In this document: positions 42,180 through 48,665 of the stretch, one piece after another
Layout: each line of letters opens with the position of its first letter
Numbering within the stretch: the first letter of the stretch is position 1
Assembly (NCBI RefSeq): GCF_001281025.1
Contig: NZ_CP012646.1
Coordinates: 1,765,001-1,829,000 of the forward strand
DNA length: 64,000 bases
Source of the DNA: Streptococcus mitis
GTDB lineage: Bacteria > Bacillota > Bacilli > Lactobacillales > Streptococcaceae
Direction: 5' to 3'
The notes under the pieces: model-generated
Told to the model about the DNA's origin: nothing
Databases searched by the model: none
What the model saw: the letters and a program-made list of their open reading frames with translations, nothing else
Translations under genes and position numbers: made by a program

Positions 42180-42944
42180 ATGTTTTGGAATTTAGTTCGC
42201 TACGAATTTAAAAATGTTAACAAGTGGTATTTAGCTCTTTATGGTGCTGTTCTCTTCCTCTCTGTTCTTATTGGAATTCAGACACAATCCTTAATCAAAC
42301 TACCTGAAAAAAATCTATCTGTTCTACTTTTTTTTCTATCTACTGTCTTTGGTGGTTTGATGGTTACACTTGTGATTTCAACTATCTTCTTGATTATTAA
42401 ACGATTCAAAGGAAGTGTCTATGACCGACAAGGCTATCTGACTTTAACCTTGCCAGTTTCTGAACACCATATCATCACAGCCAAACTAATCGGTGCCTTT
42501 ATCTGGTCGTTGATTAGCACTGCTGTCTTACTCCTATGTATCTATATTATCTTATTGTCAACAAATTCTGATGAAGTTCAACTTTCTACTCTTCTGTCAT
42601 TTGTTGCAGAACATTTTACCGGCTTTGGTCTTACTGTCTTATCCTTCCTACTAAATACCATTTCTGGAATCCTCTGCATCTACTTGGCTATTTCCATCGG
42701 ACAACTTTTCAATGAATACCGTACAGCACTCGCTGTTGCAGCCTACATCGGTATCCAAATCGTCATTGGATTTATTGAAGTTTTCTTCAATACCAGTACT
42801 AACTTCTATATTAATTCACTTGCAGGATTCAATGATAATTTCTATATGGGAGCAAGCGTAGGCATTGTTGAAGAACTCATATTCATAGCTATCTTTTACC
42901 TCGGAACCTACTATATTTTGAAAAACAAGGTTAATTTGCAATAG
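42180..42944 (+). CDS. ABC-2-type permease
   Basis: The 254-residue protein has six predicted membrane segments and the cytoplasmic loop YDRQGYLTLTLPVSEHHIITAKL, typical of ABC-2 permeases. AAAGGAG lies before the ATG. It is the last gene of the operon; a 17-bp inverted repeat follows at 43008-43054. Confidence 0.85.
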   Translation: MFWNLVRYEFKNVNKWYLALYGAVLFLSVLIGIQTQSLIKLPEKNLSVLLFFLSTVFGGLMVTLVISTIFLIIKRFKGSVYDRQGYLTLTLPVSEHHIITAKLIGAFIWSLISTAVLLLCIYIILLSTNSDEVQLSTLLSFVAEHFTGFGLTVLSFLLNTISGILCIYLAISIGQLFNEYRTALAVAAYIGIQIVIGFIEVFFNTSTNFYINSLAGFNDNFYMGASVGIVEELIFIAIFYLGTYYILKNKVNLQ

Positions 42945-43007
42945 TTTTTAAATAATTTTTACCTAGATATATAACATACTCATAGGACAAAAAGTCTTTA
43001 AAATCAG

Positions 43008-43054
43008 AAAACGCATAATATCAAGTGTTAAAAATCTTTGATATTATGCGTTTT
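43008..43054 (+). terminator. Long perfect hairpin after the GntR-ABC operon
   Basis: 17-bp arms (43008-43024 and 43038-43054, core ACGCATAATATCAA) pair perfectly around a 13-base loop, ending in TTTT. It separates the plus-strand operon from the minus-strand bacteriocin cluster and may work on both strands. Confidence 0.75.
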
Positions 43055-43149
43055 ATTGTTAGAAAATTTGCTTTATTTTCTCCTCTAATTGAGTTTTTGC
43101 CCAGCCTCAAAACACCAACTTCATTTTACCTACCAAGCACAGTCATTCG

Positions 43150-43314
43150 TCATTTATTTTTTCCAATATTATCTACGAACTTTGATAAAAAGAGAGGTAC
43201 CATAGCTATAAAAACTTGCCCTCTTTCTCCCCATGCAAATAAAACGACTGCAAGAACAGCTGAAAAGATTGCTAAACATATAGATATTAGACGACATATT
43301 TTCTTATTATTCAT
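43150..43314 (-). CDS. 54-residue membrane peptide, candidate circular-bacteriocin immunity protein
   Basis: A short gene with a good AGGAG ribosome site starts 12 bp downstream of the permease stop. The product opens MNNKKICRLISICLAIFSAV and has two hydrophobic segments (about 9-27 and 34-47), a basic N-terminus and a lysine-rich end (DNIGKNK). Circular-bacteriocin loci usually encode a basic, hydrophobic immunity protein of 50-60 residues beside the transporter, so size, charge and place fit. The assignment is by context; no sequence motif defines this group. Confidence 0.65.
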   Translation of the reverse strand: MNNKKICRLISICLAIFSAVLAVVLFAWGERGQVFIAMVPLFLSKFVDNIGKNK

Positions 43315-43326
43315 AGCACTGCTCCT

Positions 43327-43980
43327 TTACTTAATAAATATTTTACAATAGATTTTAGTTGAAAGTATAAAAGAAACCCCAATCATGATACTGGCCAAAA
43401 TTATGATACTTATAACTAGAAGGAAATGATTAGCTGAACTAATCCAGTTAATGAAAATCATGCCGAAAGTCGTTTTCTGAAGACCATACACTAATCCCAT
43501 AACTAACGATAGTACCAGTATATTGACAATCGTATTTCCAAAAGCACCAAAGGCATATACGGAAGGAAGCAATAAGGCTACATACATGATTCCAAAGATT
43601 ATTCCAATCAATGCCATAATTAAATGTAGATTGAGACTGTATTGATTAAACATGACATGGGTAGCAAGACTTAAACTCAATACTATAGAACTTACCAAAA
43701 GAATAAAAGAAATACAAGAGAGATACCTCGCTAAAATTATCTTAGATTTTGAAATTGGAAAAACTCCTACAAATTGATTCCAACCATTCTCACTATCTGA
43801 TACAACTAAAGCTGTGGGAAGAGAAGCTAAACTTATTGGTAACACTATTAGTAAAAAAATTGTCCCCGATTCTCTTGCAAAGATTGTAATTAAGAATAAG
43901 GCTAAGGCAATAAATATTCTATTAATTATCTTTACTTTATTTAAAATAAGTTGCGCATCTTTATATAGTAGTCCTTTCAT
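43327..43980 (-). CDS. ABC-2 permease of the circular-bacteriocin cluster
   Basis: The 217-residue protein has six hydrophobic segments and the ABC-2 motif MKGLLYKDAQLILNK with SDSENGWNQFVGVFPISKSKIILARYL. Its start overlaps the ATPase gene by 20 bp. In gassericin A and plantaricyclin clusters an ATPase plus a permease of this size export the peptide or add to immunity. Confidence 0.85.
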   Translation of the reverse strand: MKGLLYKDAQLILNKVKIINRIFIALALFLITIFARESGTIFLLIVLPISLASLPTALVVSDSENGWNQFVGVFPISKSKIILARYLSCISFILLVSSIVLSLSLATHVMFNQYSLNLHLIMALIGIIFGIMYVALLLPSVYAFGAFGNTIVNILVLSLVMGLVYGLQKTTFGMIFINWISSANHFLLVISIIILASIMIGVSFILSTKIYCKIFIK

Positions 43981-44821
43981 TTATTCGTTCTCCTTTGACT
44001 AAAAATAATAAAATTTCCCAAAGCGTTGCATAATTACTCTCGTCCTTACTCTTGTCAGATACAACTACTAAATATCGAACACTATCACCCTCTTCTAATT
44101 TATAATAAATGTCTACTTGATCCATATTGTTCTTTATTTCTGTTTTAATCATAAATCGGTTCAGTAAATTTTCTCTGTCTCCCTCTAGAAGAATCTCCCC
44201 ATTATGGATAAAAATAAAATAATCTGCCGCCTGTTCTAAGTCACTCAAAATATGTGAAGATAAGATTACGGTCATATTCTCTTTTTTAACATACTCTTCT
44301 AAAATAGATAAGATCTCTCGCCTAACAATAGGATCCAAGCCACTTGTGGCCTCATCTGCAATTAATAGTCTCGGGCGATGAGCGAGTGCAGACGCAAAAT
44401 TAAGTTTCACCACCATTCCTCTGGAAAATTCTTTCATCTGTTTTTGAGATGGTAAGTTAAACTTTTGAATAAAAGTGTAAAATAACTTTTTATCCCAACT
44501 AGGATAAATCATGCTCATCATTCTTTCAACTTGCTCCACCGAAAATGAAACTGGAAAAAAGTTTTGTTCTAAGACAACCCCTAGTTTCGATTTAATATCT
44601 TGCTCATGCTCTGAATAAGTTTGTTCAAAAACCCTTATACTATCCTTCTCAATCTGTAGTTGATTTAAAATCAGATTCAGTAAAGTAGATTTACCAGCTC
44701 CGTTTTCACCAATCAGTCCAATAACCTTACCTTCCGGAATCTCTAAGTTACGGACTTGCAATTGAAAATCCCCATACTGCTTGGTTAAATTTTTTATATT
44801 AACTATTGATCTGGCTCTCAT
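43961..44821 (-). CDS. ABC ATPase of the circular-bacteriocin cluster
   Basis: The 286-residue protein has Walker A GENGAGKSTLLN, signature FSRGMVVKLNFA and Walker B LLIADEATSGLDP. It carries about 70 extra C-terminal residues compared with a minimal ATPase, with no recognised domain. It lies 18 bp after the membrane-protein gene at 44840-45346 and overlaps the permease gene. Confidence 0.85.
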   Translation of the reverse strand: MRARSIVNIKNLTKQYGDFQLQVRNLEIPEGKVIGLIGENGAGKSTLLNLILNQLQIEKDSIRVFEQTYSEHEQDIKSKLGVVLEQNFFPVSFSVEQVERMMSMIYPSWDKKLFYTFIQKFNLPSQKQMKEFSRGMVVKLNFASALAHRPRLLIADEATSGLDPIVRREILSILEEYVKKENMTVILSSHILSDLEQAADYFIFIHNGEILLEGDRENLLNRFMIKTEIKNNMDQVDIYYKLEEGDSVRYLVVVSDKSKDESNYATLWEILLFLVKGERINERTTI

Positions 44822-44839
44822 GTTAACACCTCATCTAAA

Positions 44840-45346
44840 TTATAACATCATGTATAAAATCGTTAAGCTATTCCCTAAAAAAATAAGACTCGCCAATAAA
44901 ATATTAACTTTATTTGGCACATTAAGTTTTTTTAATTCCAGTAACAACAGCAAAGAAACTAGAACATAGTTAATAACACTAATAAATATAAAATACTGGT
45001 CAGTTATTTTCGTTCCTAATCCTAATATTATTAACACAAAATTAGCAATAGAATAAGCGGATATATATGTATAGTAAAGTGAATTTTTTAAATATGATCT
45101 ACTTACATTAATATCGCAAAATTTATTTAACAATTTACTGATTACATAATAATTTATATGGATATTTAATATAAAAACACCTATAGTTATTATTAGTGAT
45201 ATCACAATAAAAATGAACATGGTATAAACATTAAACTCAAACCGAAATTTATCTTGAAGTATATCTTTTGAAATCAAAATATATCTAACAACAAATATAA
45301 ATACTGCAAATATACTCAATACAAATAATTTAATATTTTTTATCAT
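44840..45346 (-). CDS. Multi-pass membrane protein of the circular-bacteriocin cluster
   Basis: The 168-residue protein has five predicted membrane segments and no recognised motif. Circular-bacteriocin clusters of the gassericin type contain a membrane protein of about 170 residues of unknown role (GaaB/PlcB-like), needed for maturation or export; size and position fit. The start codon is 11 bp after the SpoIIM-like gene. The region is strongly AT-rich. Confidence 0.6.
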   Translation of the reverse strand: MIKNIKLFVLSIFAVFIFVVRYILISKDILQDKFRFEFNVYTMFIFIVISLIITIGVFILNIHINYYVISKLLNKFCDINVSRSYLKNSLYYTYISAYSIANFVLIILGLGTKITDQYFIFISVINYVLVSLLLLLELKKLNVPNKVNILLASLIFLGNSLTILYMML

Positions 45347-45357
45347 ATATTCACTCC

Positions 45358-45822
45358 TTACTCAATAAAATTAATCATTAAGGGTGTAATAAATGCTTCA
45401 ATTCCTGCCCCAAGTATTAATAGCAAAAAGGATATCTTTAAACGTTTAATAAAATCCTGTTTATCGTAACATCCTTTTCGATGATTGATTATCGTATCAG
45501 ATAGATAAATATAAGAAAAAACCTCAATAACACCATGTGGTATTACTAATAATAAATAGAACATATTTGGGAAAGAGGAAAGCAACGCTCCTAAAACAAT
45601 ACCATTAGTGATGAAAAAAATATATATAATCATATCCCCCAATAGATAAGCTGAAAGTAGCCATATACTTGCGACAGTATTTTTTAACAAGATTTGTATA
45701 AAATCATCAAAGCCGAAAACTACACTTGCATTTGTTATAAATTGCTTTTCAGATGAAAGAGAAAAACACAGCATAATTATAGCACTACAAAGATAGATTG
45801 AAAACATATACTTTTTGACCAT
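45358..45822 (-). CDS. SpoIIM-like (DUF95) membrane protein of the circular-bacteriocin cluster
   Basis: The 154-residue protein has four to five membrane segments. ITNGIVLGALLSSFP, VIPHGVIEVFSYIYL and GAGIEAFITPLMI match the SpoIIM/DUF95 pattern, which is found in nearly every circular-bacteriocin cluster and is implicated in ligation or secretion of the peptide. It follows the precursor gene after a strong hairpin (45852-45898). Confidence 0.75.
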   Translation of the reverse strand: MVKKYMFSIYLCSAIIMLCFSLSSEKQFITNASVVFGFDDFIQILLKNTVASIWLLSAYLLGDMIIYIFFITNGIVLGALLSSFPNMFYLLLVIPHGVIEVFSYIYLSDTIINHRKGCYDKQDFIKRLKISFLLLILGAGIEAFITPLMINFIE

Positions 45823-45851
45823 TATTTGCCCTCATCAATTTCGTATAGAAA

Positions 45852-45898
45852 ATTTTGAAAAATTGAGGAAGTTAGTGTCTTCCCCAATTTTTCAAAAT
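45852..45898 (-). terminator. Hairpin between the bacteriocin precursor gene and downstream genes
   Basis: 20-base arms (45852-45871 and 45879-45898) pair with one mismatch around a 7-base loop. It lies 5 bp after the precursor stop codon. Partial termination or protection of the 3' end would give more precursor than machinery, as is usual in bacteriocin operons. Confidence 0.75.
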
Positions 45899-45902
45899 AT
45901 TA

Positions 45903-46184
45903 TTATGCACTTGCAAGACCAAAAGCAGCCAAAATAGGACCTACCCAAGCAGGAAGTGTAACACCAGCAACAGCTGCAAACGCCTCTACAATTGTCCCTC
46001 CCGAGGAAACAAAGTCCACAATATCTTGATACCATCCTGGTGCTAATTCGATTCCGAATTTTCCGCAAACCCAGTAGATATTACCTACAGCGACAATAGT
46101 TACTACAGATACTAACAAACTAAATAGAAATGCTTTCTCAATTTTATTAAGACCGAATTCTGATGCCATGATACTATTGTTCAT
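45903..46184 (-). CDS. Circular bacteriocin precursor (gassericin A/acidocin B type)
   Basis: The 93-residue product contains GLNKIEKAFLF in the leader, then GNIYWVCGKFGIELA, and AFAAVAGVTLPAWVG near the end, finishing in LASA. Gassericin A has GLNKVE, NIYWIADQFGIHLA, AFAAILGVTLPAWA and ends in ALGATAA. Cutting at the equivalent Asn35|Ile36 leaves a mature part of exactly 58 residues, the gassericin A length, joined Ile to Ala. The leader (35 residues) is hydrophobic. Odd points are a single Cys (Cys40) and a net acidic charge, with few Lys. AGGAGG lies 9 bp before the ATG. The ring is predicted to form pores in Gram-positive membranes. Confidence 0.88.
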   Translation of the reverse strand: MNNSIMASEFGLNKIEKAFLFSLLVSVVTIVAVGNIYWVCGKFGIELAPGWYQDIVDFVSSGGTIVEAFAAVAGVTLPAWVGPILAAFGLASA

Positions 46185-46408
46185 TTTATTTACCTCCTTG
46201 TTAATAAACTCCGTTACAATAAATGATCATATTATCAAAATAATAAAATTACTAGCACATTGGAATCACTCCTTCTCTTAAAATTATATTAAACAAGATA
46301 TTTTCAAGATGTACTTTATCTCTCTTTCTAGATATAAGACACATCTGTCATTACGCGAATTTTCTATCTGCAAAAAACATGAAAATCTTAATTATTAGCA
46401 TAAACTTA
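46185..46408 (-). promoter_or_regulatory. Upstream region of the bacteriocin operon
   Basis: This 224-bp gap after the Phr-like peptide gene contains TATAAT (46283-46288 on the minus strand) without a good -35, as expected for an activator-dependent or read-through promoter. About 20 bp downstream, AAGGAG precedes a three-codon frame ATG TGC TAG. A weak AT-rich stem (about 46390-46415) overlaps the end of the peptide gene. No other gene is seen. Confidence 0.45.
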
Positions 46409-46582
46409 CTAATCTGCTTTGCCAACATCAAGACCTGTAGATTTATTTTGTACTTGAATCCTCACTTCGTGGAATTTACCATCTTGTATAACTTGTCGAT
46501 ATGGGAAAATAGCACTAACTGAAATTATGCCTAATAATAAAAATGATAACAATCTTTTAATTCCATAAACTTTCTTCATCAT
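46409..46582 (-). CDS. Secreted signalling peptide precursor, PhrA-like
   Basis: The 57-residue product from MMKKVYGIKRLL has a basic start, a hydrophobic export segment (LLSFLLLGIISVSAIF) and a polar tail ending in STGLDVGKAD. The pneumococcal PhrA signal that works with TprA ends SNGLDVGKAD, with LDVGKAD as active heptapeptide, so the last eight residues are the same. Phr precursors are exported, trimmed and re-imported by an oligopeptide permease. AAAGGGG precedes the ATG. A TTGACA/TAGAAT promoter lies upstream, and a TprA-type regulator gene is divergent from it. The signal should relieve repression by that regulator and induce the bacteriocin genes. Confidence 0.85.
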   Translation of the reverse strand: MMKKVYGIKRLLSFLLLGIISVSAIFPYRQVIQDGKFHEVRIQVQNKSTGLDVGKAD

Positions 46583-46611
46583 TTTGAATCCCCTTTCCTT
46601 TTTATAATCTA

Positions 46612-46640
46612 ATTCTATCAAATTATATATGATTTGTCAA
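46612..46640 (-). promoter_or_regulatory. Promoter of the PhrA-like peptide gene
   Basis: On the minus strand TTGACA (46635-46640), 17-bp spacer and TAGAAT (46612-46617); a near-consensus promoter 30 bp before the start codon. A strong promoter fits a repressor-controlled gene. Confidence 0.8.
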
Positions 46641-46661
46641 TGATTTTATAACATTTTGTAC

Positions 46662-46676
46662 TTTTTTTTTTTTTTT
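46662..46676 (+). repeat. Run of 15 T between divergent promoters
   Basis: An uninterrupted T15 (A15 on the minus strand) begins 22 bp upstream of the PhrA-like gene's -35 element. It can act as a curved UP-like element for that promoter and is prone to slippage. No gene is present in the 46583-46772 gap. Confidence 0.9.
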
Positions 46677-46707
46677 ATTCTTATATAGCATATCTTGCTT
46701 TTAAAAT

Positions 46708-46736
46708 TTGCTAATAAAGTCTAAAAGTCGTATACT
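46708..46736 (+). promoter_or_regulatory. Promoter of the TprA-like regulator gene
   Basis: TTGCTA (46708-46713), 17-bp spacer and TATACT (46731-46736), ending 36 bp before the start codon. Confidence 0.65.
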
Positions 46737-46772
46737 ATTAAGTAGTACAATTACTGAAAGGACATATTTTTT

Positions 46773-47636
46773 ATGAATACACTCGCCGAAAAACTTAGGT
46801 TAAAGCGAAAGGAACTTGGTCTCTCCCAACAAACTCTTGCAGAAGGAATTTGTGAACAAAGTCAGATTAGTAAAATTGAAAGAGGTCATTTTATTCCCTC
46901 CGCAGACTTGTTATTCAAACTCTCTCAACGACTTGAAGTGCCATTAGATTATTTTTTTAATGAACAAATTGAAATTAAATCTAACCTCTCTAATTTCAAG
47001 CAATTATCTGCTCGACTATTAGATGATAGAAATTATGACGATTTGGAATATATTTATAGAATAGAGATTGAACGAAGTACTTTTCTAACACTAGAAGACC
47101 GAACTTACCTTGAATGGATTAAAGCTATTATTGATTTCTATCAATATGACAGTAAGTGTGAGGCAATTTCTTCATTGGAAAATATATTATTAAAAGTCTC
47201 CTCAAATACTCTGATTTATTTAAAGGCGTTGAATACTCTAGCTAATTTCTATTCCTTAGTGGGTCGTGAACAAGAATATGAGGCAAACTACTCTCATTTG
47301 ATGGAGTTATATCAGACAAAAAATTTTGAGCATCAAGAGTTTTTATTTGGCTACATCAGAGTTCGTTACAACTACGCTCACTACCTAGTATCAAAGGAAA
47401 AATATAATGAAGCCATCCAAGAAGCTCTTGAGACGATTGAACTCTGTAAACAAAGACAGACAAGCTACCAACTGGCTCCTCTACTTATTCTTGTAGGAAA
47501 TGCTGGAGCCAAATTTCTAGACAAAGAACAAGTCAAAAATTATTATATAGAAGCAAGAGAGTTATGTAAGATTTATAACAATCCTTTAATGTTGATGAAG
47601 ATAGAAAATTATTTGAAGGAATTAGATACTGTTTAA
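46773..47636 (+). CDS. TprA/PlcR-type peptide-responsive regulator (RRNPP family)
   Basis: The 287-residue protein has an N-terminal Xre helix-turn-helix (LRLKRKELGLSQQTLAEGIC, QSQISKIERGHFIPSADLLFKL; about 5-60) and a helical TPR-like remainder (about 75-285). This is the architecture of PlcR and TprA, cytoplasmic receptors for short peptides. Its divergent neighbour encodes a precursor ending in LDVGKAD, so it is probably the receptor for that signal. In pneumococcus TprA represses its targets until PhrA binds. GAAAGGA lies before the ATG. Confidence 0.88.
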   Translation: MNTLAEKLRLKRKELGLSQQTLAEGICEQSQISKIERGHFIPSADLLFKLSQRLEVPLDYFFNEQIEIKSNLSNFKQLSARLLDDRNYDDLEYIYRIEIERSTFLTLEDRTYLEWIKAIIDFYQYDSKCEAISSLENILLKVSSNTLIYLKALNTLANFYSLVGREQEYEANYSHLMELYQTKNFEHQEFLFGYIRVRYNYAHYLVSKEKYNEAIQEALETIELCKQRQTSYQLAPLLILVGNAGAKFLDKEQVKNYYIEARELCKIYNNPLMLMKIENYLKELDTV

Positions 47637-47804
47637 TTTATCCTATCATTAGAATTCTTCTTAAACTTTGAATAACCCCTAAAGCTAATAACCAGCTTGA
47701 TTCAAATTCACTTCATAAATTAGTGGTATTTTGAGGTTTTATTTTATCAAGTATGTTGGCAAATTTCTCTAATCTTCTAACTTCATTATAGAACTTTCGG
47801 TATC

Positions 47805-47970
47805 AAAAGAGGCTGGGACAAAAGTCTAACCTTAAATATAAAAAGCGAACAAAACGAGTTATCTGAAACTTAGAATTCTGTTTTGTTCGCTTTTTTATCT
47901 AATCTATCGATTTTAAAATTTTATAATAAAGAATTCCTAAAATCAAAATCTTTTTGTCCCAGCCTCTTTT
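47805..47970. mobile_element. MITE-like element, copy 1 (166 bp)
   Basis: Nineteen-base perfect terminal inverted repeats, AAAAGAGGCTGGGACAAAA and its complement, bound 166 bp without a gene. Inside, AAAAAGCGAACAAAAC and GTTTTGTTCGCTTTTT form a 16-bp hairpin. A second, inverted copy lies at 56597-56756 with a near-identical interior. It sits between the convergent tprA-like and lrgB genes, its right end overlapping the lrgB stop, and may serve as a terminator for both. The stretch 47637-47804 shows no other feature. Confidence 0.8.
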
Positions 47971-48665
47971 TAACTCAATATCAAACTGGCTACGATAGGG
48001 CTAACAAAGACATAGAGAATACCGGTGACACCGATAGCCAAGCCACCCATGGCTCCTGCTACAGAGCCATATCGAAAGGCTGTCCCTGTTCCGACTGCAT
48101 GGCCTGTTCCTCCAAGGGAAAGACCAACAGCTACTGGGTCATCAATTTTCAACCACTTCAAGAGGGTTGGGCCGATGACACTGGTTAAAATCCCAGTCGC
48201 CACTACAACCACCAAGGTCACGGTCGTCAGACCTTGCAATTTTTCTGTAATTCCCACTGCCATGGCGGTTGTCACTGACTTCGGAAAGAGAGAAATGGCT
48301 AGGAAAAAGTCCATTCCAAAAATCTTAGCTACAAGGGCTGTGAAAGAAGTATTGACAACTACTGCTAACAGACTACCAAAGAGAATACTCCGTGCATGGT
48401 GCTTCATCAAGTGAAAACTCTTATAAAGCGGAATCCCTAGAGCCACGGTCGATGGGACAATCAAGTTGTTTAGATAAACCCCACCCTGGTAGTAATCTTG
48501 GTAAGAAATACCCGTTACTTTTAGAATGATAATAATAAAAACAGCTGACAAAAGCAAGGGCGTTGTCAAAGGATGGGGAAAACGTCTGTAAATCAGCATT
48601 CCCACTAGATAAGCTAGGATAGACAGGGCAAGCCCAAACAGGGGATTGGAAACAAATTCACTCAT
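47970..48665 (-). CDS. lrgB: LrgB-family antiholin-like protein
   Basis: The 231-residue membrane protein has about seven segments and the LrgB motifs FLAISLFPKSVTTAMAVGITEKLQG and LSLGGTGHAVGTGTAF. LrgAB is linked to murein hydrolase control and, in several Firmicutes, to pyruvate uptake. It overlaps lrgA by 4 bp. Confidence 0.92.
   Translation of the reverse strand: MSEFVSNPLFGLALSILAYLVGMLIYRRFPHPLTTPLLLSAVFIIIILKVTGISYQDYYQGGVYLNNLIVPSTVALGIPLYKSFHLMKHHARSILFGSLLAVVVNTSFTALVAKIFGMDFFLAISLFPKSVTTAMAVGITEKLQGLTTVTLVVVVATGILTSVIGPTLLKWLKIDDPVAVGLSLGGTGHAVGTGTAFRYGSVAGAMGGLAIGVTGILYVFVSPIVASLILS

Follow-up and report, generated by a model that had tools for sequence, protein, structure and literature searches.

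What does a short hydrophobic peptide gene at the head of a tight gene array encode in an oral streptococcus, which signal might switch it on and what might shield its host? We address this for a 64,000-nucleotide stretch of the Streptococcus mitis genome (NCBI RefSeq assembly GCF_001281025.1, contig NZ_CP012646.1, positions 1,765,001 to 1,829,000 of the forward strand; hereafter the window, with positions counted from its first letter). A first-pass annotation, made from the sequence alone, had placed a gassericin A-type circular bacteriocin cluster of a Mitis-group streptococcus at 43150..46184. That interval holds the six genes described below, A-D-X-T-E-I, but stops short of phrA and tprA (46409-47636), two further genes of the insert. 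We consider it probable that the insert is a family-ii circular bacteriocin cassette gated by TprA/PhrA, in which T-E-I serves mainly for self-protection.

The precursor and its predicted ring

Gene A is the first-transcribed of the six minus-strand open reading frames (ORFs) at 43150-46184 and has an AAGGAGG ribosome-binding site upstream. Its product matches Pfam PF12173 (gassericin A-like circular bacteriocins) over residues 9-93 with 89.4 bits (cut-off 27, E value 1.9e-25), and reaches 14.2 bits against TIGR03651, the circularin A/uberolysin family, below the cut-off of 30.7. The 93-residue precursor contains the gassericin A/acidocin B motifs that the first-pass annotation had quoted, and the cut proposed there, between Asn35 and Ile36, holds up: it separates a 35-residue leader from a predicted core that we compute as 58 residues, and in an alignment of ten precursors (A1) Asn35 is nearly invariant and Ala93 invariant. 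Alignments of the core with acidocin B (PDB 2mwr; 55 residues, E value 2.8e-11) and plantacyclin B21AG (PDB 6wi6; 54 residues, E value 4.2e-6) both start at core residue 1. Judged from its sequence, A is very probably the precursor of a ring-shaped antibacterial peptide, and we infer that its product closes into a ring and kills. A non-circular product (a leaderless bacteriocin, a holin-like or a signal peptide) would suit a short, hydrophobic, predicted helical peptide and the report that such clusters have no known circularising enzyme (PMC8659200), but the PF12173 score, the two core matches to solved rings, the conservation of Asn35 and Ala93 and the presence of a SpoIIM gene leave it very little credence.

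The ring predicted for the A core has a computed average mass of 5955.8 Da (monoisotopic 5952.07 Da), and its linear form 5973.8 Da. Computed in this way, gassericin A comes to 5653.5, plantacyclin to 5667.6 and paracyclicin to 5906.8, for which a published table lists 5653.6, 5668 and 5905.75 (PMC7132975). With one lysine or arginine, four acidic residues and one Cys, the core has a net charge of -3 and no polybasic region, a feature present in 111 of 119 surveyed circular bacteriocins. In the same survey, two confirmed family-ii peptides are without such a region. Paracyclicin and butyrivibriocin AR10 lack it, so that its absence does not disqualify A; a single Cys occurs in 10 of the 119 (PMC7132975). 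The acidic, single-Cys composition noted in the first-pass annotation is therefore real but, given the members of that survey, uncommon rather than unique.

Relatives and distribution

By core identity the closest characterised relative of A is paracyclicin (36/58 residues), not gassericin A (26/58); the Gemella cuniculi peptide matches at 28/58 and plantacyclin at 20/58. Paracyclicin, from Lacticaseibacillus paracasei pLBPC-1, shares with the window the LAPGWYQD motif, cleavage at Asn, a 58-residue core, a SpoIIM gene and few charges. It differs in being plasmid-borne and in its gene order (A, a 165-residue protein and SpoIIM, followed on the opposite strand by transporter genes), and its core has a net charge of 0 and no Cys; neither a small immunity gene nor PhrA/TprA appears in its possibly incomplete gene table. 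Gassericin A/acidocin B and plantacyclin B21AG have in common with the window a PF12173-type precursor, the leader motif LNK.E, a 58-residue ring, SpoIIM, and ATP-binding cassette (ABC) ATPase and permease genes. In the gassericin A and plantacyclin clusters a peptide of 53-54 residues, presumably their known immunity peptide, lies between SpoIIM and the ATPase, whereas I of the window lies at the array end.

Pneumocyclicin/streptocyclicin of the pneumococcus likewise comes from a streptococcal circular cluster with a DUF95 (SpoIIM) protein, an ATPase and an adjacent XRE-type regulator, but belongs to the circularin A/uberolysin family, is basic and is located upstream of comAB (PMC4517551). 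Within family ii, a 'streptocyclin' subfamily has been coined, with S. mitis KCOM 1350 among its putative carriers (PMC7132975), and uncharacterised members from S. pneumoniae form part of a group 4 (PMC8659200). A is thus an addition to a known family, and its peptide may already be listed among these mined streptococcal precursors. The excerpts of both surveys hold no mention of TprA/PhrA for them, and full-text searches returned, in the passages retrieved, no circular bacteriocin paired with TprA/PhrA; nor did we meet a published orphan T-E-I module.

In a search of the genus (284 genomes, one per species) the precursor exceeded the cut-off in two genomes, the window's own and G269, with a weak match below it in a third. 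The G269 cluster (L009) matches the window gene for gene over all six, order included, with proteins 45-72% identical; its core matches that of the window at 45 of 58 residues, keeps the Cys and has a net charge of -1. The ratio of non-synonymous to synonymous substitution rates (dN/dS) between the two clusters is 0.18-0.45 for five of the six genes, where computable. It could be that the window cluster is silent or decaying, as its rarity in the genus and the three further genomes with T-E-I and no precursor (below) might suggest, but this is quite improbable with all eight genes (A-D-X-T-E-I, phrA and tprA) open, a plausible ribosome-binding site ahead of each of the seven minus-strand genes inspected, and these low dN/dS values.

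Beyond the genus, 7 of 395 genomes in an order-wide sample exceeded the cut-off, window genome included, and 8 of 72,556 plasmid records had a precursor match: three paracyclicin-type (50%), gassericin A (39.7%), plantacyclin (37.5%) and three others (35-37.5%). A genome contig scan found no relative with the single precursor sequence and five loci with alignment A1, one in Gemella, three in Alkalibacterium and one in Lactiplantibacillus. A scan of viral contigs found no precursor relative, and hence we see no link to phages. At the Gemella cuniculi locus (L118:5908-7389) a family-ii precursor is followed by a SpoIIM-like gene (under the cut-off), a 162-residue transmembrane gene and a 50-residue gene; by eye, the locus lies behind ORFs resembling serine recombinases, and no ATPase or permease was recognised among its listed ORFs. 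The L009 cluster (L009:541-4742) adjoins a Rep_trans/Rol_Rep_N protein and an HTH_17 (excisionase-like) protein, neighbours that suggest a mobile element.

The TprA/PhrA pair and its predicted signal

Directly upstream of A, on the same strand and 224 bases away, lies phrA, with tprA divergent from it. The C-terminal heptapeptide of the window PhrA, LDVGKAD, is identical to that of pneumococcal PhrA, and the rest of the protein is diverged. In the pneumococcus, synthetic LDVGKAD acts as PhrA (PMC5436883); PhrA itself presumably leaves the cell through Sec and, once imported by Ami, relieves TprA repression (PMC7595303). S. pneumoniae D39 resembles the window in its divergent tprA-phrA pair, LDVGKAD and bacteriocin genes downstream of phrA (PMC5436883, PMC7595303); its cargo is a lantibiotic, that of the window a predicted circular bacteriocin. 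The window TprA scores just below the cut-off for RNPP_C (24.4 against 26.5 bits). The window cluster is apparently switched on by the LDVGKAD signal that pneumococci use. Elsewhere in the window genome, two further TprA-like regulators are found at contig positions 1144620-1145465 (L002) and 489850-490689 (L003), 43% and 38% identical, whereas no PhrA-family gene other than the window phrA exceeds the cut-off.

PhrA matches occur in 57 of the 284 genus genomes, 51 of them over the cut-off, and we compared 37 PhrA loci besides the window. LDVGKAD is present in 34 (some genes have an in-frame stop); one alignment ends one residue early, and the other two loci have LDLGKAD and LDIGKSD. A full-length TprA 96-99% identical to that of the window occurs in 25 of the 37; two more have a partial or split TprA above 97%, nine one of 62-90% identity and one none, whereas PhrA is only 30-57% identical, and about half of the window PhrA residues match the common allele. 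Compared with two relatives in the same chromosomal slot (L094 and L096), the window DNA is 94-100% identical over 46930-47636 and 48-78% over 46431-46829, a mosaic stretch that spans the tprA start, the intergenic interval and most of phrA. Conserved TprA and LDVGKAD beside a diverged PhrA in mosaic DNA suggest an exchange of the signal precursor that left receptor and signal unchanged.

To see what accompanies the pair elsewhere, we examined 20 PhrA neighbourhoods, from 20 of the 57 PhrA-matching genomes, not counting the window. Recognised bacteriocin or lanthipeptide-type genes occur in ten: a lactococcin 972-type membrane protein in six (four also with its precursor), LanM in three and a RamC/LanC-like protein in one. 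Two others have a 733-residue membrane protein without a family, one a SagC-like protein below the cut-off, two remnants of the A-D-X-T-E-I cluster, two mobile-element genes, and three have no assignment. Among the 20, tprA was not found in L095 and is split in L098. At L100:5975-8497 (G031), TprA/PhrA adjoin a protein with a C39-like peptidase domain and a beta-propeller (PQQ_2) protein, and the cargo has no assignment.

By eye, promoter elements of phrA and tprA can be made out in most of the 20 loci aligned. No terminator-like site was found between phrA and A. A search for repeats and for the A-rich element conserved upstream of phrA found that element only at phrA, and thus no second TprA operator upstream of A; eleven bases of it recur exactly inside phrA (46445-46455), which we take as chance. 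The hairpin between A and D (Table 1), which has an 18-bp counterpart at the corresponding place in L009 (z -4.6), is likely a partial terminator. A hairpin after the precursor gene is a usual way to yield more precursor than helper protein.

Precursor-less relatives and a possible immunity module

Two genomes carry a shortened version of the insert in the window's slot: in G098 (L094) and G088 (L096), tprA, a phrA frame, T, E and I are kept, and A, D and most of X are gone. Downstream, nucleotide identity to the window is 99.5% in L094 and 99.8% in L096. In L096, 1,301 window bases are missing with nothing in their place, and in L094 the gap holds 436 other bases with a short broken ORF; a lactococcin 972-like label for this ORF was dropped because Pfam gave no match for its L092 relative. 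By eye, the usual phrA start codon is apparently lost in L096 (8661-8825) and out of frame in L094 (8390-8560), so these strains may listen without signalling. A third genome, G254 (L117), has T-E-I at a different site, with proteins 83-90% identical and a 26-residue fragment of X; its dN/dS against the window is 0.23 for T and 0.32 for E. No tprA/phrA match was found in its 17-kb stretch, and the PhrA-matching genomes do not include G254. At an E value of 0.001, all three genomes are devoid of precursor matches.

A search with permease E returned 6 of the 284 genomes, one at only 24%; two of the other five have the full cluster and three T-E-I only, and the reverse case, a precursor without T-E-I, occurs in none of these five. 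Small as these numbers are, we read the retention of T-E-I without a precursor as the mark of a putative immunity module. In the pneumococcus, streptococcins are reported to show the same cheater pattern, and bacteriocin switching is reported beside TprA and Rgg (PMC6120550). T and E might instead be chiefly an exporter of the bacteriocin, akin to phenol-soluble modulin (PSM) exporters: the best NCBIfam model for T is PmtA, a peptide exporter (224 bits, under the cut-off of 350), and ABC transporters are reported in every confirmed circular bacteriocin cluster and in 95 of 99 putative ones (PMC7132975). The persistence of T-E-I in three precursor-less genomes is hard to account for by an exporter that has lost its cargo, and export and immunity do not exclude each other; we hold a role chiefly in export to be a serious but doubtful option.

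Helper genes, insert and chromosomal slot

The array that the first-pass annotation had laid out, a precursor followed by SpoIIM, membrane, ATPase, permease and 54-residue peptide genes, was recovered in full. Its genes are tightly packed, with gaps of 11 bases between D and X, 18 between X and T and 12 between E and I, and an overlap of 20 bases between T and E. D has a 64% identical homologue at the same position in L009 and is probably needed for maturation or export. X, with no Pfam or NCBIfam match, is 45% identical to its homologue in L009, and 5 of the 284 genus genomes match it, three of them only as a C-terminal remnant. Its similarity to the 162-residue Gemella protein is weak (E value 0.002), and a proposed homology to the 165-residue protein of the paracyclicin cluster is unsupported (E value 0.044 over 22 residues). 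I has no Pfam or NCBIfam family over the cut-off; its homologues are 45% identical at the same place in L009, 100% in L094 and L096 and 83% in L117. Rfam yielded no family.

Seven flank stretches were available to delimit the insert, five with both flanks and two with the lrgAB side only. Similarity of the flanks stops at 42943-42947 in three of the five two-flank relatives and, in the two that are more diverged, at 42775-42798; it restarts at 47966-47970. In these five the slot is empty in two (~75-100 bases between the flanking genes) and holds other cargo in three. GC content in 500-bp windows is 22-33% inside the insert compared with 34-49% in the flanks; no direct repeats of at least 20 bases bounding the insert were found. 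Near-identical flanks in G088 support the Mitis-group host assigned at first. In G103 the same slot (L079:2527-9684) carries an Rgg regulator and a choline-binding protein with a caspase (Peptidase_C14) domain and, by eye, two more choline-binding-like proteins and an ABC transporter.

Table 1. Features of the insert and its genes, in window coordinates (HTH, helix-turn-helix; TPR, tetratricopeptide repeat)
Feature	Position	Strand	Basis
Presumably acquired insert, ~5 kb, between ABC permease gene and lrgB	42948..47965		Flank similarity edges, GC
I, 54-residue basic hydrophobic peptide, candidate immunity peptide	43150..43314	-	Position, homologues
E, ABC-2 permease	43327..43980	-	PF13346, 81.5 bits
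T, ABC transporter ATPase	43961..44821	-	PF00005, 84 bits
X, 168 residues, five hydrophobic segments (simple hydropathy count)	44840..45346	-	No named family
D, SpoIIM-family membrane protein	45358..45822	-	PF01944, 43.4 bits (cut-off 26.9)
Hairpin between A and D, 20-bp stem	45852..45898	-	-23.4 kcal/mol, z -8.5
A, precursor of family-ii circular bacteriocin (very probable)	45903..46184	-	93 residues; PF12173 match
phrA, 57-residue exported signal precursor ending LDVGKAD	46409..46582	-	NCBIfam NF040904 (PhrA_Strep), 82.7 bits (cut-off 40)
phrA promoter TTGACA-17-TAGAAT, TG before -10	46612..46640	-	11/12, top-scoring site of region
tprA promoter-like site TTGCTA-17-TATACT	46708..46736	+	9/12
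tprA, HTH + TPR/RNPP-type regulator, divergent from phrA	46773..47636	+	PF01381, 53.8 bits; RNPP_C, 24.4 bits

Discussion

We propose that the ~5-kb insert encodes the ring precursor A, that D would mature or export it with X as a helper with five transmembrane segments, and that T-E-I, an ABC transporter and a small hydrophobic peptide, would mainly shield the producer. PhrA would be exported, trimmed to LDVGKAD and re-imported, where it would lift TprA repression of the phrA promoter; transcription would then read from phrA into A, and the strong hairpin after A would let less transcript through into D-X-T-E-I. The leader would be cut after Asn35 and Ile36 joined to Ala93, and the ring would permeabilise the membranes of related bacteria. 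In this scheme, TprA control of A and the immunity role of T-E-I are what we infer from gene arrangement and comparison.

Several observations weigh against this proposal. For the ring, whose family has a saposin-like fold of four helices, structure models of the linear precursor are poor: the single model (helices 14-43, 51-61, 65-72 and 81-87) has a predicted local distance difference test (pLDDT) score of 67 and gave no significant PDB match in a fold search, and a model made with five relatives has a pLDDT of 59. For the gating, the sister cluster L009 adjoins an Rgg regulator, split into two ORFs, and not TprA/PhrA; promoter-like sites in 42900-48000 number 33 against 28.4 expected by chance, and terminator-like sites three against 1.8; and no catabolite-responsive element (cre) with fewer than two mismatches was found in the tprA-phrA interval, whereas a cre site is reported at the pneumococcal tprA/phrA locus (PMC5436883 among the sources). 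For immunity, I is not demonstrably related to the peptides of the gassericin A cluster (33 of 1000 shuffles score as high) or the plantacyclin cluster (358 of 1000), and its orphan copy in G254 has a dN/dS of 0.86, on 12 differences. The deletions in L094 and L096 look recent, given their 99.5-99.8% identity to the window, so that retention there alone says little.

A circular bacteriocin cluster that came to lie next to tprA/phrA by chance, read from a promoter of its own, would account for the different, split regulator beside L009 and for the 224 bases that separate A from phrA; weak sites (9/12) occur at 46425-46397 and 46204-46176. We judge this unlikely, for A lies on the phrA strand with no terminator-like site in between, the top promoter of the region is that of phrA, and bacteriocin or lanthipeptide-type genes accompany half of the other PhrA neighbourhoods examined, with cluster remnants in two more.

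Gating by TprA/PhrA, with T-E-I as a shield, also leads to a broader and more tentative picture, which we think less likely to be right than wrong: LDVGKAD may be a signal common to S. mitis-like streptococci with interchangeable peptide weapons, strains of the L094 and L096 type may have shed the weapon yet keep tprA and T-E-I by the phrA promoter, so as to put up their shield once producers nearby signal (eavesdropping immunity), and the shield may also stand alone at another locus.

If the proposal is correct, the insert would give an oral commensal a paracyclicin/gassericin-type ring that is probably induced by a signal identical to that of the pneumococcus, and the identity of the heptapeptides suggests that commensal and pathogen may cross-talk in the throat. 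Naturally occurring deletions mark T-E-I as a candidate self-protection module and make the idea of eavesdropping immunity directly testable, and the acidic, single-Cys core would bear on whether members of this family need positive charge to be active.

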